Origin: Bacillota bacterium
GTDB taxonomy: Bacteria; Bacillota; Limnochordia; Darwinibacteriales; Darwinibacteriaceae
DNA: 64,000 nt
Direction: 5' to 3'
NCBI GenBank assembly: GCA_012840725.1
Contig: DURQ01000012.1
Coordinates: 1 to 64,000 of the forward strand
Shown here: in pieces, positions 21,725-56,795 of the stretch
Position numbering within the stretch: position 1 is the stretch's first letter
Layout of the letters: each line of letters begins with the position of its first letter
Made by a program: the position numbers and the translations under genes
The notes under the pieces: model-generated
Told to the model about the DNA's origin: nothing
Databases searched by the model: none
The model's input: the letters and a program-made list of their open reading frames with translations, nothing else

Positions 21725-23425
21725 TCATCGGGGAGTTTCCCTGCCGCCCAGGGGCAGGACTATCCCCGCCTTCCAGTGCAGCCCGCGCTGACTGTCCCAG
21801 CCAGCTGCGGCCACCAGATTGGGCTTGGGAGTAAAGACCGCGCCAAGCCCTGCGCGCCAGGCTGGCTCGGGGCCAAAACCAAGAACCCCCTCGGCATAGA
21901 GTGTGCACCATGGAGAGAGCACATAACCCGCGGTCTGCCCCACCTCCCACAGAACGCGTCCATCCTTCAGCTGCCATGCCCCCCGGCTCGCAAACAACCA
22001 GCGCCCCTTTGCCCAGGCCTGCCTGAAACGCAGGCCCAGTTCAGGTCCTTCAGCACTGCATCTCGCGTAGCCTTCCCAGGGGGGGAGCTGTCCTTCCAAA
22101 CGGACTTCTTTGGGGTCGAGGAGCAGACCGAACCGGCTCTGCCCATCGGGACGCCAGTCCGCTTTCAGGCGCTCTCCCTGCAGTGCGAGGCGGAAAGACC
22201 GGTCCCGCCGTTCCAGCCAGATGGTGCCGGAAGCCGCAGCTGCACCCCAAGACCAGCCGCCTTCTGCGAACTGGAAGCGCAGATCTCCTGGATCCAGCTG
22301 CAGGCGCAGCTTCTCTGAGCGGTACTGCACAGAGCAAGCTGGCGTCTGCCCCTCCTGCGCGGGCAGATCCACTGTTAGGCGCCACCTGCCCTCCTGCCAG
22401 CTGCCCCGGTAACCCGCGGAAGTGCGCTGCCACTCCCAGTTTCCCTCAGCGGCATGGCTCCTAACTGACAGAGAGGCCCGCAGACCTCCGGGCAGACCTT
22501 CCAGCAAGAGCGGTCCCCAACTGAGCTTGACGCCCTTCGGATAGGCGTGCATCAAAGCCGGATCAGACCAGGCAGCGATCCGCCAGGTAAAGCCCTGATC
22601 CCAGAGGAGGATGGGCACGAAACCGCTGGCAAAGCTATCTTCACGGGGTTCCAAAGACCATTCAACCGCTTCTGAAAAAGGAAGACCGGTCCAGATAGGC
22701 GTGTGGGGGCTGTGTAGCGGAAGAACAACGTCCAGGGCTCCGCCGGGCACGCTGACCGCGGCCCCGTCCCCGGCCAGGCGCCCGTCGGGCAGGAGAAGCG
22801 GTCCGCTGCCTTCTGCTATCCTGATGAGCTGCCGGCCGTGATAGTTCAGCCAGCTTGGCCTAAGCGGGCCCTCAAGATCGGGATCGGCACTCTTGGGTGC
22901 ATCCAAGGCCTGTTCTGCCCCCAAAAGCAGTCTCTGCCCCCGCCAGAAGACAAAGTCTTCGGGCTGAACCAGAAACCACCTGTCTGGCGCAGGCTCGATA
23001 CGCTCTCCGAGGCGATCAACTGCGAGCTGATCGCTGCCAAAGGGAAGGAGCCACCAGCTGCCGTCGATTTTGAGCCCCACCACGCCCCCGGCCCCCTGCA
23101 GAGCCAGTTCAAACTCCCACTCATAGGTGCCCGCGGCGAAAGGGGGCTGGCAGTGCAGCTCCAAACAGAACTCTCCGTCCAGCGAGCCATGCCCCTCGAG
23201 CAGCACTGCGGCGGAACGGACCCTCCCTTCACCATCCCTGACGGCCAATCCAGGTGAGCAGTACGCGGTAAGCTGCCAGGGTCCAGAGGCATCCACCCAC
23301 AGGTGCAGATGCTGTTCGATCACGACCAATTCCTGCCCCGCCTCCGCCACTGAGAAGAGGCGGGGTGCCCCCGCTTGAACCCCTGAGGTCCAGAGGAGCA
23401 CCCCGATGATCAGCCAGCACAGCAT
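21725..23425 (-). CDS. secreted beta-rich protein, last gene of a three-gene cassette
   Basis: I do not recognise this 566-residue protein. It starts with a signal peptide (about 1-19, ending SGVQAG) and is beta-rich throughout. The N-terminal part (20-130) resembles an Ig-like sandwich. The C-terminal 180 residues consist of alternating short amphipathic strands (for example CTLYAEGVLGFGPEPAWRAG and WKAGIVLPLGG) that look like outer-membrane barrel hairpins. The final residue is not aromatic, so a BAM-dependent barrel is plausible but not shown. The start TGATG overlaps the preceding gene. An usher-like or anchoring role would fit the neighbours, but that is inference. Confidence 0.55.
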   Translation of the reverse strand: MLCWLIIGVLLWTSGVQAGAPRLFSVAEAGQELVVIEQHLHLWVDASGPWQLTAYCSPGLAVRDGEGRVRSAAVLLEGHGSLDGEFCLELHCQPPFAAGTYEWEFELALQGAGGVVGLKIDGSWWLLPFGSDQLAVDRLGERIEPAPDRWFLVQPEDFVFWRGQRLLLGAEQALDAPKSADPDLEGPLRPSWLNYHGRQLIRIAEGSGPLLLPDGRLAGDGAAVSVPGGALDVVLPLHSPHTPIWTGLPFSEAVEWSLEPREDSFASGFVPILLWDQGFTWRIAAWSDPALMHAYPKGVKLSWGPLLLEGLPGGLRASLSVRSHAAEGNWEWQRTSAGYRGSWQEGRWRLTVDLPAQEGQTPACSVQYRSEKLRLQLDPGDLRFQFAEGGWSWGAAAASGTIWLERRDRSFRLALQGERLKADWRPDGQSRFGLLLDPKEVRLEGQLPPWEGYARCSAEGPELGLRFRQAWAKGRWLFASRGAWQLKDGRVLWEVGQTAGYVLSPWCTLYAEGVLGFGPEPAWRAGLGAVFTPKPNLVAAAGWDSQRGLHWKAGIVLPLGGRETPR

Positions 23426-23934
23426 CAAGAGGCCTCACCCGGCGGCTCAGGCCGGAATTCAGATCGCGGCACCAACGCCTCCCGTCCCAGGCACGTGCCG
23501 TCTTCTTCCGTGGAAAGCAGCAGGAGCACAGCCAGGCGCGCCGACACTCCCGGTTCGATCGCCCTCACGAGCAGAGCCGCCTGAAGCTGGTGGAAATCTG
23601 CGGCTGCGACCTGCACCTGGATGGTCTGCACTTCTCCTGGCCGCAGGCTGAAACGGCGCGGTTCGAGATCCAGAAACGCCTCCGCCCTGGCTTTGCTCAA
23701 CTCATCTTCCAAAAGGAGCACGCCGCCTGGGCTGTTTCGGGCAAACAGAGCTAAGGAGAGCTCGATTTCGACCTCCTCCTGGCCCTGGTTGCGGCAGGAC
23801 ACGCTGAAGCTTCTCCCTGCCTGAACAGAGACTGCCTCGATGATCGCCGGCGCCACAGAAATGCGGGCTTCGGCGCGCCCCCATCCTACCAGGAGCAGGA
23901 GCAGAAGGGCCGCGCAGAACCGTTTGAACCTCAT
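23425..23934 (-). CDS. small secreted PapD/DUF916-like chaperone candidate
   Basis: The 169-residue protein has a signal peptide (1-22) and a single Ig-like domain with the pattern of pilus chaperone domain 1: ISVAPAIIEAVSVQAGRSFS, then NQGQEEVEIELSLALF, then LDLEPRRFSLRPGEVQTIQV. Classical chaperones have two Ig domains and about 230 residues, so this one is reduced. It has no C-terminal membrane anchor such as DUF916 proteins carry. ATG 23934 overlaps the upstream stop as ATGA. A role in folding or guarding the small secreted partner is inferred from fold and gene order. Confidence 0.5.
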   Translation of the reverse strand: MRFKRFCAALLLLLLVGWGRAEARISVAPAIIEAVSVQAGRSFSVSCRNQGQEEVEIELSLALFARNSPGGVLLLEDELSKARAEAFLDLEPRRFSLRPGEVQTIQVQVAAADFHQLQAALLVRAIEPGVSARLAVLLLLSTEEDGTCLGREALVPRSEFRPEPPGEAS

Positions 23935-24377
23935 AGCGCAGGCACCACGGTGAACTCGAGCCGGAAACTGTAGTTGCCAGGAAGGTCGCCATATGTACCT
24001 GTGCAGCGAATGGGAACTTTGATCACTCTTCCCTCCGACCCTGTCACATCCTGGTTCCAGTACAACAGCTTGGTGCCGCTCAAGGTGACCCATGTCTCTT
24101 CCATGTCCTGCATTTCCACCTTCATGGGTGGGTTGGAACCTTCGGCAAGGGTCACGCTCAGCTCCCACGGCACATTGGACCACACGTTCAGCTCCATATC
24201 GGTACGCCGCTGCTCTTCTGGCGCAAGAGCCCCTATGATGATGTTACCTGGGCCGGATATGCTGAATCCCTTTAGGATTGTGACCTGAACAGTGACCGTT
24301 TCAGAGGCCTGCGCGCTGGCTGCGGCAAGCAGCACGGCCAGGCTAAGCGCCATGCAAGCCGCTTTTCTTCTCGCCAT
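23931..24377 (-). CDS. small secreted beta-sandwich protein (pilin- or WxL-like)
   Basis: The 148-residue product has a signal peptide (1-25, ending ASAQA) and a mature beta-sandwich-like sequence: VTVQVTILKGFSISGPGNII, then WSNVPWELSVTLAEG, ending LPGNYSFRLEFTVVPAL. The SN-x-PW element and the closing G-x-YSFRLEFTV strand are typical of secreted Ig-like subunits such as WxL or DUF4402 types; I cannot assign a family. AAGGAGGAG precedes ATG 24377. It is the first gene of the cassette and could be the structural subunit. Confidence 0.5.
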   Translation of the reverse strand: MARRKAACMALSLAVLLAAASAQASETVTVQVTILKGFSISGPGNIIIGALAPEEQRRTDMELNVWSNVPWELSVTLAEGSNPPMKVEMQDMEETWVTLSGTKLLYWNQDVTGSEGRVIKVPIRCTGTYGDLPGNYSFRLEFTVVPAL

Positions 24378-39867: not shown

Positions 39868-42072
39868 TTAGAAAGCGACGGTCAGACCAGCGGTGTAACC
39901 GAACTGGTTCGAAATGTCGTTCTTGCCAGCGATGGTCTGCTTAACCGTTCCACCAAAGGTGAGTTTCACATCCTTGGTGAAGCCGTAAGCGATGTCCAGC
40001 TTGTGGGTCAGGGTCATGTTCTGATCCTTCGGCTGGGTCGGCAGGGTAAAGGCGGCCTTGTAGTCCACATCAAACTTGGCGCTGCTCAGATCCAAACCGT
40101 AGCCGATGTTGGCGCCGATCCGCACTTCATCGTTGGTGGTGTACTGCTTTGGATCTTTCCAGTTCGGGTTGTCGGGATCCTTCCAGAGGTTCTTCTCGTA
40201 AGCCGCATTCACGCCGTAGCGCAGACCATAATCACCCGTCTTCGCCACTTCGATCTTAGCCAGGGCATGCTGTACCATGTCGCCGCTGCCCTGCTTCGCC
40301 GCCGAATACTCAGCAGTTACGGTCACAGGCACGAAGAGATCGAAGGAAGCGGATGCATCGGCCCGGAAGGCCAGGATGTCCTTGTCGCCAACAGCGGCAC
40401 CCGTCACGGCCTTTTCAGGAAGCCCTTCATAGTAGGCACGGCCCTTCAGGGTCAGCATGCTGAGTTTGGTCTCAACGCCGCCTTCAACACTGAGTCTGTT
40501 GTCGTCGTTGTTCACCAGCGGTTTGGTAATGTCGTAGTTCTTCTCTTTGAACACGACTTTGCCATCAAGCTTCAGGCCGCTGAACTCGGTCTTCAAGGTG
40601 GCTACTCCGATGTAATTCTTCTCCTTGACGGTGTCGAAGTCCATCGCGAAGTCACCAGTGTACTCAATGCCAGCTACCTTACCGAACAGGCCGGCACCGG
40701 CTGCATAGCCCTCAAACATGCCGCTGTAAGGCTTGGTGGCTTTGCCCTTCAGGCGGAGACCGATAGCATCGCTGAACTTGTACTCCAGAGCCAGAGCGGC
40801 ATCAGCTTTGCCATCATCCTTGCCCTTCTGGGCGATGAGGAGCTGTGCGCTGAGGTTGTCGATGATGTCGACCTTAGCAAGACCGCCGAATCCGTAATCG
40901 GCGCTGGCGAGTACATAGCCAAACGGCGAGAGGTTGGCCTTCAGAATCTTACCAACCAGCAGACGGCTGAGCGGCGTGGACGAGGTCACTTCAACGTAGT
41001 AGTTGTTCAGCTGGGCAGCACCCTTGTCGAACGGAGCAAGCTCCCAATCGACGAAGGTCTTGACGGTGGTGGCGTCGGAAGCCTTGATGGTGAGGCTGAC
41101 CTTGCCGGTTTGAGTCAGGGTCCAGCTGCCTGCGCCAACCTTCTTCTCGCCTTTCAGGCTCAGGCTGCCGGACATCTTGATCTTCTCCAGCTCAGCAACG
41201 CTGCTCTTCAGGCCGGCAACGTCTTCCTTCAGAGTGGAGACATCACTGTCAAGGTCGTTTACCCAGTCGGACAGAGCAGCGATCATCGCCCTGTTCTCTT
41301 CGATCATCAGCTCGAGCCTCTGAACCTGAGTGCGGATCAGGGCTTCAGCGATGAACTCAACGTCTTCTTTCGTCAGCTCAGGAGTGGTGGCAACAACGCG
41401 CTCGATGATCGTGGTTTCCTTCGCAGCAGCGGCTGCTTCAAGGATGCTCTCTTCGATCCTCTTGGCGATCAGAGCTTCGATCTCGTCCATTGACGGCGGC
41501 TCGACATAGGCAGCCTCATGGGCTTCCTGCTGAGCCTTCAGCTGTTCGAGATCATAGCGGATGCCGTCCATCAAGCCGAGCATTCTGGCTTCGAGGTAAG
41601 CCATATCGCCTGCAAGGGCTTCGGTGGCAACCTCAGCAGCGCGGATGCGGGCTGCTGCTTCTTCATCGAGTTCCTTCTCGACGATGACTCTTTCGACAAC
41701 GGTGGTCTCGATGGGCTGCTTCTCGGCTGCAGCTGCGGCAGCGGCCTTAGCGGCTTCGATCTCGGCCATCAGTTCAGCCTTGATCTTGTCCAGCTCAGGC
41801 AGCAGATCGATGGCAGCAATCTGGCCTTCGAGGCGCTGCAGGGCACGAGCGAAGACCATAGCAGCTTCGTAACGGGTCATCATCCTGGAGCCGCCATAGG
41901 TTCCATCCGGATATCCCTCGATCAGGCCGGCAGCGGCGAGCTGCACGATGGCATCGTATGCCCAGTGATCAGCGGGAACATCCGCGAAGGGACTGGCGAA
42001 TGCCGGTGTCAGTGTACCAGCCATGAGTACGATGGCCAGTACCAGGGCAAACTTCTTAAACTTCATGTTCAT
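39868..42072 (-). CDS. OmpM-type outer-membrane porin with SLH domain
   Basis: Proteins of this type tether the outer membrane of diderm Firmicutes to the cell wall and form its main porin. The 734-residue protein has a signal peptide (1-26), one SLH domain (27-72, FADVPADHWAYDAIVQLAAA to TRYEAAMVFARAL), a long periplasmic coiled coil (about 80-330) and a C-terminal barrel (about 335-734) with many 10-residue strands, ending in GLTVAF. The SLH domain binds pyruvylated or polyamine-decorated wall polymers in relatives. The gene stands alone with its own long leader and terminator, fitting an abundant protein. Confidence 0.93.
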   Translation of the reverse strand: MNMKFKKFALVLAIVLMAGTLTPAFASPFADVPADHWAYDAIVQLAAAGLIEGYPDGTYGGSRMMTRYEAAMVFARALQRLEGQIAAIDLLPELDKIKAELMAEIEAAKAAAAAAAEKQPIETTVVERVIVEKELDEEAAARIRAAEVATEALAGDMAYLEARMLGLMDGIRYDLEQLKAQQEAHEAAYVEPPSMDEIEALIAKRIEESILEAAAAAKETTIIERVVATTPELTKEDVEFIAEALIRTQVQRLELMIEENRAMIAALSDWVNDLDSDVSTLKEDVAGLKSSVAELEKIKMSGSLSLKGEKKVGAGSWTLTQTGKVSLTIKASDATTVKTFVDWELAPFDKGAAQLNNYYVEVTSSTPLSRLLVGKILKANLSPFGYVLASADYGFGGLAKVDIIDNLSAQLLIAQKGKDDGKADAALALEYKFSDAIGLRLKGKATKPYSGMFEGYAAGAGLFGKVAGIEYTGDFAMDFDTVKEKNYIGVATLKTEFSGLKLDGKVVFKEKNYDITKPLVNNDDNRLSVEGGVETKLSMLTLKGRAYYEGLPEKAVTGAAVGDKDILAFRADASASFDLFVPVTVTAEYSAAKQGSGDMVQHALAKIEVAKTGDYGLRYGVNAAYEKNLWKDPDNPNWKDPKQYTTNDEVRIGANIGYGLDLSSAKFDVDYKAAFTLPTQPKDQNMTLTHKLDIAYGFTKDVKLTFGGTVKQTIAGKNDISNQFGYTAGLTVAF

Positions 42073-49130: not shown

Positions 49131-49761
49131 TGCCAGCCTCCTCCTCCAGAATAACGTTCCCGAAGAAATCCATTGACTCTGCCTGCAGGTCATAGACCGC
49201 TTCCTCCAGCTTCCAGAGCAGGCCACCATCGCGGATCTGCACGCCTCCGGAAAGGTGCACCAGCCCTTTCTCGGTGTCCATGCCCATCTCCGCCGCCTCA
49301 ATCTCCATGCCGCTCCAGAGGATGCGCACCGGCCCCGGAGAGACCAGTGTCGCGCTGGACCCGAGCCACTCCAAATAGTCGCTTTCCAGCTGGAAGTTGT
49401 CTTGCTCTCCCACAACAAGCACCGGACCGTACAGCCTTAGAACCTCGGTCTTGCGGTTCCACTGGGCCCGGGGGGCCTCAATGTTCAGGTAGGGCTCCTG
49501 GTCTTGGAAGACGACCATTTCTTCCAGATCGCCCAGGGTGACCAGCTCGCCCTCCTGCAGCACCGAGCGGCTGAGGATCTCCCACTGCCGCTGCCCATCT
49601 TTGCGCCCCACGAGCCTCGATTCCAGCAGCTGCACGCTGGGGGGCACGGCCACTGCCGGGGGCGCCGGCTGGCTGAGGAAGCGCACGGTGATGAAGATGA
49701 TGACCGCAACCAGCACGGCGCTGCAGGCAGCGATCCGCTTCGCTTTGGTTGACAGGGGCAT
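49123..49761 (-). CDS. lptC: LPS export protein LptC
   Basis: LptC is anchored in the inner membrane by one helix (about 8-29) and hands LPS from LptFG to LptA. The 212-residue protein continues with LptC-type beta strands (LVTLGDLEEMVVFQDQEPYL, RAQWNRKTEVLRLYGPVLVV, KGLVHLSGGVQIRDGGLLWK). ATG 49761 overlaps the lptD stop as TGATG. The coupling with lptD and lptA supports the name. Confidence 0.85.
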   Translation of the reverse strand: MPLSTKAKRIAACSAVLVAVIIFITVRFLSQPAPPAVAVPPSVQLLESRLVGRKDGQRQWEILSRSVLQEGELVTLGDLEEMVVFQDQEPYLNIEAPRAQWNRKTEVLRLYGPVLVVGEQDNFQLESDYLEWLGSSATLVSPGPVRILWSGMEIEAAEMGMDTEKGLVHLSGGVQIRDGGLLWKLEEAVYDLQAESMDFFGNVILEEEAGSD

Positions 49762-51899
49762 CACTCCTCCACATCGATAATATCCGCCACATCCTCGAAG
49801 TCAAACAGGCTCAAGCCGCCCTGGCTGTCCCAGCCGATGGGCAGAGTGGGAAAAGCGTTGATGGTCAGCTGCACCGCAACCCGGCCCGAAACGTGATCGT
49901 AGGCAAAGGTGAGTGTGCGGCAGTGCAGCTCCTGGTTGACCGCCAGCACCCCCTTGGTGAACTTCCTGGAACCGGGGTTGTAAATGCTGTCATAGGTCAC
50001 CGACAAGCTCGAGGCCAGGGGAAGGGTGAAGCGCATGTCCACCCGCTCCAGCTCATCGATATCCGGCCGGTAGCGCAGGCCGAACTTCAGGCTGAACTGG
50101 TCCCGCTTGTACTCGATCAGCGGCACGACGCGGGTCAGCTTCTTGGCGTTCAAATCATAGCTGGCATAGACATCCAAGCGCCACTGATCGCTGGCCTTCA
50201 GCCCTGTATTGAGGGTCAGGCCGCTGAACTTTTTGGTCAAGAAGTCGTATGTGGTCGTGGCGCTGGCCTGCACTTTCCCCTGGTTGTAGTTCAGGCGCAC
50301 ATTCAGGTCTTGGAGCGGTTTTTGGGCGTCAAACTTAAACGGCGTCGACCCCCAGACATCCCGGCGCCGGTAAGTGCCGCTCAAAGACAGCCTCTGTCCC
50401 AGGCTCTGGCTCAGGCTCACCCGCCCGTACAGCCAGGCTTGGCTGTGCTCGTCGGAGTAAAGCGCTCCGTTCAAATCTCCCTGGTAGGTGATGGTGGTGC
50501 CGGCTCGCGGACGCCAGGTCTTGGACCGCAGGGTGAGCTGGCCGTAGGCCCGATTCTTCACAATATCAGACGGTTTTTCTCCGTAGCGGCCGACCATCAG
50601 CTGGGCCTGGAGCGGCAGGCTGCTCAGGCCGAGGTCGCTTATTTCCCATTTAAGCTCCGGCACGCGCTGCACGCTGCGCCAGTCCTTGGCTCCCGACCCT
50701 AAAAGGTCGGGGTTGAACTGCTGCTCGAAGGTGAGGGTGAATTTATTCTTGCCCTTGGTATAGACCGCCGAGCCGAGGTAGTCCAGGATGCGCACCTCTT
50801 CGCTGGTGAGCTTCTGGACATAATTGCCCTTCACGTTGACGGTCAACCGGTCAGTCAGCTTCTTGGTGGCCTGCAGCCCCAGGTCAGTCTGCTTCTTGGT
50901 GGACTGTTCGGGGGTGTTTTTGTAGTTCAGCCATACCTTCCCTGTGAAATCATCTGTGGAAAAGCTCAGGGTGGTGTCGGATGTTGTCTGCTCGCGGATC
51001 CAGGTCTTCTCCACGCTGTTCTTCGTGGTGAGGGTCCAGCTCTTTTTGCTCAGGCTGTGTTCCCAGGCCGCCTTGTAGGCCTTCTCGCTGCTGGTGGGGA
51101 TGCCCCACAGGTAGAGGTGGCCTTCGCCCAGCTCTTCGAGCCTGTAGTTGTGCTTGATACCCAAGCCGACTCCCAAGCGGGTGTAGAGATCGACGTAGAT
51201 GTTGCCGTAGGAATTGGCATTCCTGTAGTAATTGAAGGCTGTCTTGATGAAGTATCCTTCCTGCTCGCTGTAGCCGATAACCGGCAGGCTGACCAGAAGA
51301 TCCTTCAAGTCTTCCCTGAGGGGCACCACCAGATAAGGCCAGTAAAAGAGGGGCAGCTTCCCTTCGTAGTAGATGACGTGGCGGACGATGGCCCTATCCC
51401 CCGGATAGAGCTCAACCTCCCGGGTGACCAGGCGGTAGTGGCTCTCCTCCAGATCGCAGGTGGTGAAGGACGCATCGCTGAAGTTGTACTTTTGCGCGTC
51501 GAACAGCACGGTGTGGCCAGCCACATACACCGTTCCGTCTGGAACCAGCAGATCGGCCCGGATCTCCTGGAAAGTTCCCTCGCCCGTTTCCAGATCGTAG
51601 GTCAGAAGCTCCCCCCGGATCTCCTGGTCGTCCCGGACCAGGCGCACCGAACCATGCAGGGTGGCCACCGCTCCAGCCAGATCAGCATGGAGGTAGTCGC
51701 CGTAGAGCACCACATCATCCCCCACGTGCACCTCCACACCGCCCTCTGCCGTGAAAACCCGGCTCTCCAGATCATAGGAGCCCGAATTGGACGCGACGAT
51801 GCGCACCATCTGCTCAGCACTGTGAACAGGCGGTGCGGGAAGGGTCAGCATGAAAATGAGAGCTGCGGCCAGCAGCGCAGTGCCCTTCCGGAGCAGCAT
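49761..51899 (-). CDS. lptD: LPS assembly outer-membrane protein LptD
   Basis: LptD is the outer-membrane translocon for lipopolysaccharide. The 712-residue protein has a signal peptide (1-27), an OstA N-terminal domain (about 30-150, RVFTAEGGVEVHVGDDVVLY, GELLTYDLETGEGTFQEI) and the LptD hallmark SFTTCDLEESHYRLVTREVE with KLPLFYWPYLVVPL, followed by a large barrel rich in aromatic-ended strands. The single Cys in that hallmark suggests that the interdomain disulfides of E. coli LptD are not conserved. No LptE lipoprotein is seen nearby. LptF/G ends 16 bases upstream. Confidence 0.93.
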   Translation of the reverse strand: MLLRKGTALLAAALIFMLTLPAPPVHSAEQMVRIVASNSGSYDLESRVFTAEGGVEVHVGDDVVLYGDYLHADLAGAVATLHGSVRLVRDDQEIRGELLTYDLETGEGTFQEIRADLLVPDGTVYVAGHTVLFDAQKYNFSDASFTTCDLEESHYRLVTREVELYPGDRAIVRHVIYYEGKLPLFYWPYLVVPLREDLKDLLVSLPVIGYSEQEGYFIKTAFNYYRNANSYGNIYVDLYTRLGVGLGIKHNYRLEELGEGHLYLWGIPTSSEKAYKAAWEHSLSKKSWTLTTKNSVEKTWIREQTTSDTTLSFSTDDFTGKVWLNYKNTPEQSTKKQTDLGLQATKKLTDRLTVNVKGNYVQKLTSEEVRILDYLGSAVYTKGKNKFTLTFEQQFNPDLLGSGAKDWRSVQRVPELKWEISDLGLSSLPLQAQLMVGRYGEKPSDIVKNRAYGQLTLRSKTWRPRAGTTITYQGDLNGALYSDEHSQAWLYGRVSLSQSLGQRLSLSGTYRRRDVWGSTPFKFDAQKPLQDLNVRLNYNQGKVQASATTTYDFLTKKFSGLTLNTGLKASDQWRLDVYASYDLNAKKLTRVVPLIEYKRDQFSLKFGLRYRPDIDELERVDMRFTLPLASSLSVTYDSIYNPGSRKFTKGVLAVNQELHCRTLTFAYDHVSGRVAVQLTINAFPTLPIGWDSQGGLSLFDFEDVADIIDVEE

Positions 51900-51915
51900 G
51901 GCTACCTCCCCACTT

Positions 51916-52992
51916 CTAGTACCAGCGGTCGGAAAGAATCAAGAAGACAAAACCGGTCACTGCGAACAAGGTGTTCACCAGCCAGGCCGAGACCAGCGGC
52001 GGCAGGACCTCATTGATGCCCAGGGAGCGGGCGACGGAGACAGCCACGTAGTAGACGAGCAAAATGGCCAGGCTGAGCACGATCCCAAACGCCCGCCCGC
52101 CTTTGCCCATCAGGGCCAGGGGCGCCGCAAAAAGGGCAAAGACGAAGGAAGCCATGGGCAGCGCGAGCCGCATGTGGTGCTCAATAACCCAGGAGCGCAC
52201 CTTCAGCCCGCCCCTCTGGAAGCGCTCAATGTACTCGGCCAGCTCCCGGCGGCTCATCTCCTCCACAGAGCGCTGATTGCCGAAGTAGACCTCGCCCTCC
52301 TGTTCGGTGACGATTTCCATGCGCTCAAAGCGGCTCTCGAACTGAACAAAACCGTCCTCATCAAGCTCCTGGTAAACCCCGTCAAAGAGGACCCAGACCC
52401 TGTCGTGGAAGATCCCGGTCTGGGCGGTGGTGATGTTGGGGAACCCGTTGGTAGACAGTTCGTAAACCAAGATCTTTTTCAGCTCGTGGGTCTTGGTATC
52501 AACCTCGCCGATGTAGAAATACCGGTCATCTCCACCGTGGAAAAACACATTCTCTTCCACCAGGGGCACCCCGTCAGAGAAGATGATCCGCCGCAGCGTG
52601 TTCTCAAACTTAGTGTTGGCCGGAGGCACTATGTACTCCGAGGCCAGGTAGGTACCGGCACTGATCAGCAGGCCCAGGACCAGGATGGGCACGATCAAGC
52701 GGGGATAGGCGACTCCGCTTCCCCGCATCACGGTCATTTCGCTATCCTGCACCAAGCGTCCCACGGCCAGCAGGGTGGAGAACAGGGTAGCGATGGGCAG
52801 TGTGGTCACCACCGTGGCCGGTATGCGGTAAAGCAGCATCCTGGCCACCGTCCCCACGGCCACATCGTGCACGAAGATCAGGTCTGTCAGCTGGAACAGC
52901 AGCCCGGTCAGAAGCACGACGGTAAAGCCGAAGACGCAGAAAGAAAACGGTCCCAAGAGTTCTCTGGTCAGATAGCGGTCGAGGATCTTCAT
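51916..52992 (-). CDS. LptF/LptG family permease (YjgP/YjgQ)
   Basis: The 358-residue protein has the family layout: three N-terminal helices (about 14-115), a periplasmic beta-jellyroll (about 135-260), and three C-terminal helices (270-353). Signature segments are MKILDRYLTRELLGPFSFCV, VGRLVQDSEMTVMRGSGVAY and RLALPMASFVFALFAAPLAL. Only one such gene is found here, whereas E. coli uses an LptF-LptG heterodimer, so it may act as a homodimer or pair with a copy elsewhere. With LptB it would extract LPS from the inner membrane. Confidence 0.93.
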   Translation of the reverse strand: MKILDRYLTRELLGPFSFCVFGFTVVLLTGLLFQLTDLIFVHDVAVGTVARMLLYRIPATVVTTLPIATLFSTLLAVGRLVQDSEMTVMRGSGVAYPRLIVPILVLGLLISAGTYLASEYIVPPANTKFENTLRRIIFSDGVPLVEENVFFHGGDDRYFYIGEVDTKTHELKKILVYELSTNGFPNITTAQTGIFHDRVWVLFDGVYQELDEDGFVQFESRFERMEIVTEQEGEVYFGNQRSVEEMSRRELAEYIERFQRGGLKVRSWVIEHHMRLALPMASFVFALFAAPLALMGKGGRAFGIVLSLAILLVYYVAVSVARSLGINEVLPPLVSAWLVNTLFAVTGFVFLILSDRWY

Positions 52993-53020
52993 CCCAGCAA
53001 CACCTCGCGGTGAGCGTGAA

Positions 53021-53614
53021 CTAAAAAGCCAGCTTGAAATGGATCCCGAAATTCAAGCCCCTTCCCAGCGCCACGCCCAGGTTAGCCCCAAGCTCCGGGC
53101 TGAACTGGGCTGTCACTCCTCCGCTCAGGTTGTGGCCGTCGTACTCCATGAAGAGCGATGCGGTTGGCACGCTGCTTACCTTGACGGGATTGAGCATCAG
53201 CGTAACCCCGGCCATGCCCCGGGAATAGCGGCCCAGGCCCCAGGCCAGGTGGCCGCGGAGGTGGGGTGCTCCCAGCTGCTTCGAGAGAACGGCGTACAGA
53301 TCCTGGCTCCCCGAGGAAAACTCTCCGCCCACGGCGATCCCCGGCAGCTGAGCAGTCTCCTCCATCAGCACGGCCTTGGCAGTGACGTAGAACCTGCCCC
53401 CCACGACCTGCCTCACCCCAGCGCTGAAGTTGGGATGGAGCCCGAGCTCAAGGCCGACGGCATGCACGCCGCCGTAGGTATAGGCAAGCTCCACGGTGCC
53501 AGAGGCGACCGCATCGGCAGTAGGCACGGCAGACAACTGAACCGCCCCCACAGAGCCGGAACAGAACGCCAGAACCACAAATATGCTCCAGATCATGCTG
53601 CGAATGTTCTTCAT
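53021..53614 (-). CDS. small outer-membrane barrel protein
   Basis: The 197-residue product has a signal peptide (1-24, ending SGSVGA) and about eight to ten amphipathic strands (TVELAYTYGGVHAVGLELGL, GRFYVTAKAVLMEETAQL, AGVTLMLNPVKVSSVPTASL) ending with FGIHFKLAF. The terminal Phe and strand pattern point to a small outer-membrane barrel. I know no family. The start ATG 53614 is preferred over ATG 53626, which lies too close to AGGAG. It lies 28 bases upstream of lptF/G. Confidence 0.65.
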   Translation of the reverse strand: MKNIRSMIWSIFVVLAFCSGSVGAVQLSAVPTADAVASGTVELAYTYGGVHAVGLELGLHPNFSAGVRQVVGGRFYVTAKAVLMEETAQLPGIAVGGEFSSGSQDLYAVLSKQLGAPHLRGHLAWGLGRYSRGMAGVTLMLNPVKVSSVPTASLFMEYDGHNLSGGVTAQFSPELGANLGVALGRGLNFGIHFKLAF

Positions 53615-53703
53615 TTCTGTCCTCATCTCCTAGCTTTGCTGGTCACTATTCTCCCTTGGCGGAGCGATCACCTGCCGGGGTGGGGTTGGGAGTTCGTGGA
53701 TTC

Positions 53704-53725
53704 AAAAAAACCGCCTGGCGGCGGT
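53704..53725 (-). terminator. terminator after the Skp/OmpH gene
   Basis: ACCGCC, GCCA and GGCGGT form a short GC-rich stem that starts right at the stop codon. On the minus strand it is followed by T7. Confidence 0.8.
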
Positions 53726-54144
53726 CATTTTAACTTACTGATCACTTCGTCTGTAAGGTCGGTTCCCCCATAGCGGATCACATCGCTGTCAAACACCACT
53801 GAGATCTTGCGGCTCTCGGCAACTTCCTTGACGGCAGCGTTCACTTCCTTTTCCAGCTGCAGTTCCAGTTCCTGGCGGTAGGCTAGGTATTCGGCATAGG
53901 CTTCCCGCTCCCGCTGCGCCCGGCCCACGTCGTCTTCCGTTGGTTCCTCCTCCAGATCGAAGCGGGTGAGCAGTTCCTGGTAGCGTGCGGCCAGTTTCTC
54001 GTTCAACTCCTGAGCCCTGGGGCTTTCGTCCACCACCCTCAGGAGATCGACAACGCCCACCGCTCCGCCCCCGAGGCCGGCGAAAAGCGCCCAGATCAGG
54101 GCGGCAGCCAGCACGCCGGCCACGGCCCAAGGTAGATATTTCAC
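53725..54144 (-). CDS. OmpH/Skp-family periplasmic chaperone
   Basis: Skp-type trimers hold unfolded outer-membrane proteins in the periplasm and pass them to BamA. The 139-residue protein has an N-terminal hydrophobic segment (5-28) that may be an uncleaved anchor, then the family pattern VGVVDLLRVVDESPRAQELN, coiled-coil arms, and the closing SVVFDSDVIRYGGTDLTDEV. It follows another coiled-coil secreted gene by 47 bases and lies near bamA, the usual neighbourhood. Confidence 0.88.
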   Translation of the reverse strand: MKYLPWAVAGVLAAALIWALFAGLGGGAVGVVDLLRVVDESPRAQELNEKLAARYQELLTRFDLEEEPTEDDVGRAQREREAYAEYLAYRQELELQLEKEVNAAVKEVAESRKISVVFDSDVIRYGGTDLTDEVISKLK

Positions 54145-54191
54145 TCTGCGGTCACCACCTTGCTTTGGGATAAGAGCGCCGTTCCACCTTA

Positions 54192-54821
54192 TTATGACCG
54201 ATCATACGCAGACCTAGACAGGCGGCCAGCAAGTTCAGCCCAGAGCTGCCGGTCAAAGGCCGCCACTTCCTCCGCCACGGCTTGCTCCAGCTCTGCCTGG
54301 AAGGCCAGCAGGCGCTCCCGGGCGGCTTCAACGTGTTCTGCCTGCAGCTGCCCCAACCTCTCCCCATACTCCACTTGCAGCTCTTCCTGCTTACTCTGAA
54401 GCTCATCCTGGAGTTCGGCGAGCCTCGCCAGCCGCGCCTCTTCTTCCTCGGGCGAGAGGGAGACCAGAAACAGTTCCAGCTGCAGCTCCAGCATTTCCCT
54501 GGTCAGTTCCGCCTGTTCCGCTCGGGCTTCAGCCTGCAGGGCATCCCGCAGTTCCCGGGCAGCGTCGTGGAGCTTCTGAGCGTGCTCCCGGCGGATCTCA
54601 CCGGCCTTCTCCGCAAGCAGCTCTTCAGCGGGGGCCAGAAGCTCAGCCCGGAAGGCAGCCAGCTCCTCTGCCTGCTGGGCAGCGAGACTCTCGGCGGCGG
54701 GCTCACTTCCTCCCTCAGAAACCTGAACCCCTTCCGCCGCAGTTCCGCCAACCGCAAGCGATGACCCGCTGAGGAGGCCAGAAATCAACAACAGGATCAA
54801 GACTGCCGGCAGAATTCTCAT
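54192..54821 (-). CDS. secreted coiled-coil protein, Skp-like
   Basis: The 209-residue product has a signal peptide (1-23) and, from about 45 to 200, an almost continuous Glu/Ala/Leu-rich coiled coil (EELAAFRAELLAPAEELLAE to LAFQAELEQAVAEEVAAFDR). It lacks the strand that closes typical Skp proteins, so assignment to that family is tentative. Its own promoter and its partner Skp gene make a two-gene unit. It could supply a longer chaperone arm or a wall-to-membrane spacer. ATG 54821 follows GGAAAGGGGGA. Confidence 0.6.
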   Translation of the reverse strand: MRILPAVLILLLISGLLSGSSLAVGGTAAEGVQVSEGGSEPAAESLAAQQAEELAAFRAELLAPAEELLAEKAGEIRREHAQKLHDAARELRDALQAEARAEQAELTREMLELQLELFLVSLSPEEEEARLARLAELQDELQSKQEELQVEYGERLGQLQAEHVEAARERLLAFQAELEQAVAEEVAAFDRQLWAELAGRLSRSAYDRS

Positions 54822-54854
54822 GGCCGTCCCCCTTTCCAAGTGCCTAACGGGGCC

Positions 54855-54884
54855 ATTATACCAGCGGGGAGAAGGCCAGGACAA
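54855..54884 (-). promoter_or_regulatory. promoter of the Skp-like pair
   Basis: On the minus strand TTGTCC (54884-54879), an 18-base spacer and TATAAT (54860-54855) preceded by TGG form an extended -10 promoter. It lies 33 bases before the ATG at 54821. Confidence 0.75.
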
Positions 54885-54889
54885 ATGCA

Positions 54890-54931
54890 AAAAAAGCCGG
54901 TGAACCCGCCTTTTGGCAGGCTCACCGGCCT
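54890..54931 (-). terminator. terminator of bamA
   Basis: GCCGGTGAACCCGCC (54896-54910), TTTT and GGCAGGCTCACCGGC (54915-54929) form a long stem with mismatches. On the minus strand it is followed by T7. It ends the bamA transcript. Confidence 0.9.
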
Positions 54932-54952: not shown

Positions 54953-56686
54953 CTAGAAAGCCTGGCCGATCCCGAAGTAGAACTGTCCTTTGCGGTGGTT
55001 CTCCGCATCCTTGCCCAGGCCGTAGTCCAGGCGCAACAGTCCCAGAGGCGTATCCAGGCGCACGCCTATACCAAAGGAGTTCTTGAGATCCTTCATGTTG
55101 AACGACTGGCCTTGGTTCCAGGTGGTTCCCCAGTCGGTGAAGACTACGCCCTGAACCTTCTCCACGATGGGGAAGCGGAACTCGGCATTCATGACCAGCA
55201 TGTTGTCGCCAACAAGGCCAAGGGACGAATCTCCATAGGAGTAGCCGCGCAGGGTGTCCGCGCCACCGATGCGGAACTTGTCCGCCTCGGGCAGGCTGCC
55301 GCCCAAGAGCCGTCCGCCCATTCCCCGCAGGGCCAGGACGTAACCGCCGTCTTTCACTTCAAAGAACCGGCTGTGCTCCAGGCTCAGCTTAGCGTAGGCG
55401 CTGGTACCGCCGAAGAGCGTGGTACCCAGTTCCAAGTAGACATCGTTCTTGTAACCCTCTGTGGGGAAGAAGGGATGGTCGACGGTGTTGGTGTTCAGAC
55501 CGACACCGATGTTCCTCGTCTTGGAATCATCGGGCACGCCGCCGATCGGTCCGTCCTCATGGGCATAGGTGTTGTTCTCCAGCTTGAAGGTGAGGCGCCC
55601 TCTGGTAAACTCGGTGAGGGGCTTGCCCAGGGTGAGATCGCCGCCGATGGAGGTGCGCTTGCTCTTGGTTTCCTCATCGCTGTCAGGATCAGCCGTCTTG
55701 ACCTCGCTGATGCGCCGGTAGAGGCTGGTACCAAGCGAGATACCCGACTTGGTGATATACGGTTCATAGAACTCAAACTCGTAGGAGGTGACCTTCTGCC
55801 CCAAGCTGACATTGGCCTTGACCATCTGCCCGCGTCCGAGGAAGTTATCATCGGACACCTGGAGGAAGCCCACCAGGCCCTCCGCCGTGCTGTAGCCAAC
55901 ACCAAAGGTAGCGGCGCCGGTCTTGCGCTCCTTGAGGTTGATGGTCAGCACCGTTTTGTCCGGGTCATCCTCTTGGGAAAACTCGCGGCTGATCTCATCG
56001 AAGTACCCGAGCATCAGCAGGCGGCGCAGGCTCTGGTCGATGGCCTTGATGTCCACGGGATCTCCAGCCTCGAAGGTGAGCTCGCGCTCGATAACGAAGT
56101 CTTTTGTCTTCTCGTTGCCGGTGATGACTATATCCTGCAGTGTGGTTTGGGCAAGCTCAATGCCGATCCGTCCATCCGTATCCGCGCTCAGGGAAGTGAC
56201 GCGCACAAGATAACCGTACTCACCGAGCACCCATTCCCACAGCCCTTCCAGGTCTTCCCAGATATCATGGGCGTTGAGGATGAGACCAGGCTGCGTCTTC
56301 ATGTCCCTGGCATACTTCTCGAAGGCTATGCCGGGCACTCCCGAGAAGGTGACTTCCCGTACGATTGGATTCTCCACGACGTGAAAGACTACCTCGACTC
56401 CGCCCAGCGCAGGATCGACTGTGGCCTGCACGTCCTCGAAATACCCCAGGTCATAGATGGCCCGGATGTCGTCGATAATCTTCTGCTCGGTTGCCTCTTC
56501 ACCGAGCCGCGTCTTGAGGATGCTAGCTCTGATGGTCTCGGTGTCCACGAAATTATTGCCTTCGATCGTGATCAGCCTCACGACCCCGAGCTCCTGGCCC
56601 TGCGCCTGCACCGCCGAGCTGCCGACCGAAGCCAGCAGGCCCAACACGAGCAGCGCAATGACCAACCTGGCTGAACGTTGCCTCAT
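54953..56686 (-). CDS. bamA: outer-membrane protein assembly factor BamA
   Basis: BamA folds and inserts barrel proteins into the outer membrane. The 577-residue protein has a signal peptide (1-28), three POTRA domains (about 33-105, 106-180, 181-255; for example ITIEGNNFVDTETIRASILK and IVITGNEKTKDFVIERELTF), and a 16-strand barrel with the RGYSYG loop (in ADTLRGYSYGDSSLG). It ends with FYFGIGQAF. E. coli BamA has five POTRA domains, so this is a shorter form. ATG 56686 follows GGGAGGCAG. Barrel proteins in this window are likely clients. Confidence 0.95.
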   Translation of the reverse strand: MRQRSARLVIALLVLGLLASVGSSAVQAQGQELGVVRLITIEGNNFVDTETIRASILKTRLGEEATEQKIIDDIRAIYDLGYFEDVQATVDPALGGVEVVFHVVENPIVREVTFSGVPGIAFEKYARDMKTQPGLILNAHDIWEDLEGLWEWVLGEYGYLVRVTSLSADTDGRIGIELAQTTLQDIVITGNEKTKDFVIERELTFEAGDPVDIKAIDQSLRRLLMLGYFDEISREFSQEDDPDKTVLTINLKERKTGAATFGVGYSTAEGLVGFLQVSDDNFLGRGQMVKANVSLGQKVTSYEFEFYEPYITKSGISLGTSLYRRISEVKTADPDSDEETKSKRTSIGGDLTLGKPLTEFTRGRLTFKLENNTYAHEDGPIGGVPDDSKTRNIGVGLNTNTVDHPFFPTEGYKNDVYLELGTTLFGGTSAYAKLSLEHSRFFEVKDGGYVLALRGMGGRLLGGSLPEADKFRIGGADTLRGYSYGDSSLGLVGDNMLVMNAEFRFPIVEKVQGVVFTDWGTTWNQGQSFNMKDLKNSFGIGVRLDTPLGLLRLDYGLGKDAENHRKGQFYFGIGQAF

Positions 56687-56795
56687 TGTCCTGCCTCCCA
56701 CACAGTAATTTTCGATCTCCTAACTTATTTCTCCCCGTATGCACAGATTCCTCTTGCCAACTCCGGGGGTGTATGACACAAAAAACCAGCCTGAC

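Follow-up and report, generated by a model that had tools for sequence, protein, structure and literature searches.

A conserved three-gene cassette points to a possible, so far undescribed chaperone-assisted surface system of outer-membrane Firmicutes

Gene layout and genomic setting of the cassette

The stretch of DNA analysed here, 64,000 nucleotides long and referred to as the window, comes from a Limnochordia genome represented by an incomplete assembly of 2.06 Mb. It carries a cassette of three genes encoding, in order of transcription, a small subunit, a chaperone-like protein and a larger third protein (Table 1). Their coordinates confirm the overlapping arrangement described in the initial annotation, with an ATGA overlap between the subunit and chaperone genes (23934-23931) and a TGATG overlap between the chaperone and third genes (23427-23423). 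The third protein is 566 aa long when read from its ATG, and 567 aa when read from an alternative TTG.

The signal-peptide-like N-termini that had been proposed for all three proteins also stand. Judged from the sequence, each leader combines positive charge, a hydrophobic stretch and an A-x-A-like motif, and a leader helix is visible in the models of both orthologues that were folded (the chaperone and the third protein of locus L021); the exported nature of the proteins is supported by computation. The block previously described as PapD-style, LDLEPRRFSLRPGEVQTIQV, is present in the second, chaperone-like protein. No Pfam or NCBIfam family covers any of the three proteins, and PADLOC gave nothing of note.

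Table 1. Genes of the cassette and features located within them (positions in the window)
Feature	Position	Strand	Basis and remarks
Subunit gene	23931..24377	-	148 aa; orthologues in relatives
Chaperone-like gene	23425..23934	-	169 aa; putative PapD/WxLIP-superfamily member, only domain 1 in the window genome
Chaperone residues 147-154, just before the missing domain 2	23473..23496	-	Alignment
Third gene	21725..23425	-	Leader, subunit-like domain, predicted C-terminal amphipathic beta meander
N-terminal subunit-like domain of the third protein	23093..23365	-	hhalign to the subunit profile
Third-protein junction LEGPLRP/SWLN, site of ~110 missing residues	22844..22876	-	Alignment, orthologue model
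C-terminal run of ~26 short amphipathic strands in the third protein	21743..22621	-	L021 model, face alternation, 6x9z match

The cassette is preceded upstream by metK and followed downstream, on the opposite strand, by an alpha-amylase-family gene and the methionine ABC transporter genes metNIQ (names read from the sequence). This synteny holds throughout the family, as it would if the cassette took part in starch or methionine metabolism; however, in other families and classes the cassette is flanked by unrelated genes. We dropped such a metabolic role, to which we give next to no probability, because the neighbours change elsewhere.

The diderm nature of the host, already assumed in the initial annotation, was borne out by the presence of Omp85 in all 21 of the relatives' genomes checked, and Limnochordia have been reported to be diderm (PMC11456536). 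The window itself contains an Omp85/BamA gene at 54953-56701 (Omp85 match ~54956-55846), which marks a diderm envelope. Adjoining it, at 49761-54890, are apparent envelope-biogenesis genes, read from their sequences as LptD/OstA-like and Skp/OmpH-like. Moreover, the protein encoded at 39868-42072, with an SLH-like N-terminus and an aromatic C-terminal end, resembles OmpM, which tethers the outer membrane in diderm Firmicutes.

Conservation of the cassette and domain loss in the window copy

Of 61 relatives, 28 have a homologue of the subunit, most of them inside the order; the chaperone has homologues in 30 of the 37 order genomes, a few of them being weak matches to a longer paralogue only. 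The third protein has homologues in most of the order and almost none outside. Nearly all complete loci retain both the gene order subunit-chaperone-third and the overlaps. Since homologues of all three genes occur across the order, usually adjacent and overlapping, the triplet goes far beyond chance, and the conservation check suggested by the initial annotation returned an operon conserved through most of the order. Peptide-pattern scans of 84,980 species retrieved near relatives only.

Three genomes of a single genus (G024, G031 and G033) keep the chaperone with no detectable third gene, and two of them, G031 and G033, also keep the subunit. A Flp/Tad-pilus-like gene set is located some kilobases from the subunit and chaperone genes in both of the latter (loci L042 and L041, respectively).

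The copy in the window is shorter than those of its relatives. A single-domain chaperone and a third protein of 566 aa, as first described, are correct for the window but not for the family, where the chaperone has two domains and ~226-235 aa and the third protein 636-724 aa; in the same way, the terms reduced or minimal suit the system of the window genome but not that of its family. Alignment with the relatives indicates that the ~58 residues by which the window chaperone is short correspond to domain 2, while the ~110 residues missing from the third protein correspond to the second Ig-like domain of the relatives; one assembly stands behind both losses. As nearly all relatives possess a two-domain chaperone, the single-domain form represents a local reduction. 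Short chaperones were also detected in G002, which belongs to the same genus (156 aa), and in G010 (146 aa), placed outside the window's genus by a MetK tree. Given the short chaperone of G010 and this placement, domain 2 was lost at least twice, and as G010 has a full-length third protein, there is no strict coupling between the two losses.

These shortenings could be read as early loss steps of a cassette that is decaying in the window genome, where two domains are gone, and the third gene is indeed missing from some relatives. Nevertheless, every frame is open, both losses are in frame, the overlaps are retained, and domain 2 is also lost in G002 and in the independent lineage of G010, so we regard decay as quite unlikely. 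The repeated loss of domain 2 offers natural minimal chaperones for testing which domain is needed.

The three proteins and their wider family

The AlphaFold model of the full-length L021 chaperone (mean pLDDT 90.6) displays two beta-sandwich domains. When used in a fold search, its best PDB matches were CfaA (a class 5 chaperone), CsuC (an archaic one), WxLIP, FimC, CupB2, DraB and Caf1M, covering the whole length with E values from 7e-9 to ~2e-6; TM-scores of ~0.43-0.58 and rmsd values of 6-10 A indicate a match of fold and domain plan rather than a close superposition. Single chaperone members gave WxLIP_PGBD at 1.6e-3 and PapD_N at 0.03, both short of the Pfam cut-offs. We also built a phylum-wide chaperone profile from sequences with trimmed leaders (A6), which matched eleven PapD-type chaperones of E. 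coli K-12 (Prob 85, E 5.9e-6, 161 columns) as well as eight WxLIP proteins (Prob 82, E 9.8e-6, 191 columns, both domains). The true scores were not approached by any of 60 block-shuffled controls, and reversed ones yielded E 0.3-0.45. WxLIP and PapD, compared directly in the same profile test, did not match each other; a chaperone family related to both is thus a testable intermediate.

In PDB sequence searches A6 retrieved EfmWxLIP1 at E 0.0015 and, at E 0.05, EcpB, a fimbrial chaperone; the order-level profiles gave only hits that were weak or generic. A link between the untrimmed chaperone and PapD (Prob 36) was dropped as it largely disappeared once signal peptides were removed, and it took the broader profile of the whole phylum, with leaders trimmed, for a PapD link to reappear. 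The fold search and the trimmed profile-profile match bear out the PapD-like chaperone of the initial annotation, and the WxLIP profile match does so for the link to DUF916/WxLIP. The protein has the fold of this superfamily, and models and profiles together support its designation as a putative PapD/WxLIP-superfamily chaperone. Clear counterparts of both basic residues of the PapD R8/K112 cleft were not found in it: strand A1 contains no Arg, and the invariant Arg131 is located at the start, not the end, of strand G1. Class 5 chaperones likewise lack an R8 counterpart (PMC4133393).

The searches returned no family match for the subunit. Its motif SNxxWxL, the single WxL-like motif of the protein, is conserved, and the residues invariant in the order include P53, V65, N68, W71, L73, W96, T112 and R124. 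In 21 of the 22 order members the chain ends 12 residues past Tyr136, and in the remaining one 13; across the phylum this distance is 11-12 and constant in 12 of 13 sequences, despite a strongly variable remainder. A C-terminus fixed in this way is expected from recognition of a free C-terminus, as in pilus subunits. A link of the subunit to E. coli pilins (untrimmed Prob 81) vanished on signal-peptide trimming and was discarded. Comparison with WxL domains by hhalign gave a Prob of 0.3, the WxL sequences being the real records retrieved by a consensus-like query; the subunit profile matched TLP-1/TLP-2 (PDB 9ikj/9ikk) weakly, at E 0.09.

Homology between the subunit and the first domain of the third protein was seen by hhalign (Prob 83, E 9e-6; E 0.76 for the reversed control); the subunit HMM also matches this N-terminal region directly in distant partner proteins, with E values of 2e-8 to 4e-3. 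The model of the L021 third protein (677 aa, pLDDT 83, pTM 0.60) has two N-terminal Ig-like domains and, at residues 376-664, ~26 short antiparallel strands, in nearly all of which a hydrophobic face opposes a polar one; the last strands match 6x9z, a designed transmembrane barrel (E 5e-4). Strands of 11 residues make this meander short by the standard of classical membrane barrels. Foldseek placed the PapC usher first (E 3e-7), followed by FimD and porins; superposition on ushers is poor (TM 0.14-0.20, with 0.14-0.18 for PapC; rmsd >20 A), so the fold hits reflect barrel-like strand runs and not an usher. Pfam Usher (PF00577) was detected in none of the 73 genomes of the class, and the third-protein profile scored no better against E. 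coli ushers than its reversed control. We therefore abandoned the view of this protein as a small usher; by sequence it is none, and it has a subunit-like N-terminal domain instead. The barrel-like strands proposed for its C-terminus did find support in the model, the face alternation, the 6x9z match and the fold hits; this C-terminus is of outer-membrane type, and by model and sequence it is probably an outer-membrane barrel or sheet.

A leader, passenger-like Ig domains and C-terminal strands also make up the architecture of an autotransporter-like protein, whose barrel would export its own subunit-like domain while chaperone and subunit merely assist. We find this distinctly improbable: a separate subunit gene is retained, even in genomes without the third gene, and the third protein matches zero Pfam families of any kind above cut-off, autotransporter barrels included.

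Across the phylum, 52 of the 399 genomes have a match to the chaperone profile. Several of these chaperones have two kinds of neighbour, a homologue of the subunit and a large (652-1395 aa) multidomain protein that is secreted; some of these large partners carry FlgD_ig, CarboxypepD_reg, SdrD_B or DUF11-like domains, and some end in SdrD_B-like domains, not strands. At one locus (L186, 85-1455) a 456-aa protein adjoins a subunit and a longer chaperone (391 aa). It begins with a subunit-like domain, continues with Ig-like and carboxypeptidase-regulatory-like stretches and has no barrel, and is perhaps a truncated protein or an adhesin.

A second cassette is present in the window's own genome (L129, contig C10, 2333-9923) and in many genomes of the class. 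Its genes encode a secretin, recognised in the orthologue L109 with E 3e-39, along with a barrel-like protein, several subunits, which in L129 end in a GxYxGxIxVTV-like strand, and a tandem chaperone of ~510 aa (507 aa in L129), whose profile has matches in 55 of the 73 genomes of the class. It resembles the triplet in having homologous subunits (hhalign, Prob 90, E 1.8e-6) and a homologous chaperone (triplet chaperone against the ~510-aa double form, Prob 96, E 4e-9), but differs in that its channel candidate is a true secretin (PF00263) and its chaperone a tandem.

Proposed mechanism and comparison with known systems

We lean towards reading the triplet as an outer-membrane cassette for chaperone-assisted display or assembly. 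It is most likely a strand-complementation system for display or assembly, intermediate between chaperone-usher systems and WxL clusters. Export by Sec would bring the subunit, and likewise the third protein's N-terminal domain, into the periplasm, where the PapD/WxLIP-like chaperone would complete or protect them as incomplete beta-sandwich domains, recognising the fixed C-terminus of the subunit, and by analogy with PapD and WxLIP it may do so by strand complementation. The C-terminal sheet or barrel would anchor the third protein in the outer membrane, with its subunit-like domain serving as a base or acceptor at which the subunit docks. We further infer that the subunit may be handed over and exported across the outer membrane, to be displayed or polymerised at the surface, possibly by donor-strand exchange and into fibres.

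On a wider scale, the data raise the possibility, which we put forward tentatively, of a new phylum-wide class of strand-complementation systems in diderm Bacillota linking chaperone-usher pili and WxL clusters, with either a barrel-like protein carrying a subunit domain or a secretin as the outer-membrane partner, and with a chaperone that can be reduced to one domain. This bears on the possible surface systems of the diderm ancestor proposed for Firmicutes.

WxL clusters have been described from Gram-positive bacteria, and the strongest rival to an assembly system is a diderm counterpart of them, a static surface complex in which a WxLIP-like partner stays bound, with neither pore nor polymer. 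WxL clusters mostly consist of two WxL proteins and one WxLIP, and the sandwich of WxL is predicted to be completed by a hairpin strand of the WxLIP (PMC10599100). The triplet is similar in that a small subunit and a large protein with a related domain accompany an interacting protein, whose profile matches WxLIP (DUF916/DUF3324) over both domains, and in the invariant WxL-like motif of the subunit (W71 and L73). The differences are that the triplet has an outer-membrane-type C-terminus on its third protein and a diderm host, that the window chaperone has no C-terminal membrane helix in its sequence, unlike WxLIP, and that the WxL domain (PF13731, with two WxL motifs) was found neither by Pfam in the window genome or the sampled order and class members nor by profile comparison. 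On balance we consider a static complex rather unlikely.

Chaperone-usher systems have been described from Proteobacteria, Cyanobacteria and Deinococcus-Thermus (PMC4654587). The triplet shares with them the two-domain PapD-like chaperone fold of the relatives, an exported small subunit with a fixed C-terminus and an outer-membrane-type partner, all in one operon. Chaperone-usher subunits are pilin-like, with an incomplete Ig fold and a donor strand, a pattern with which the fixed C-terminus would agree. Unlike them, it has a single subunit gene, a one-domain chaperone in the window and a third protein with a subunit-like N-terminal domain, without usher family match and without domains after the barrel, the usher being built of a 24-strand barrel, a plug, an N-terminal and two C-terminal domains. 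The chaperone-usher-like reading of the initial annotation thus holds for the PapD-like chaperone, the outer-membrane-type C-terminus, the diderm host and the triplet, but not for the usher or for a family-wide single domain. As the usher and the WxL domain were looked for and not found, membership in either system is not established; the triplet likely works like a chaperone-usher or a WxL system, and its three proteins together point to a possible chaperone-assisted surface system of outer-membrane Firmicutes that is as yet undescribed.
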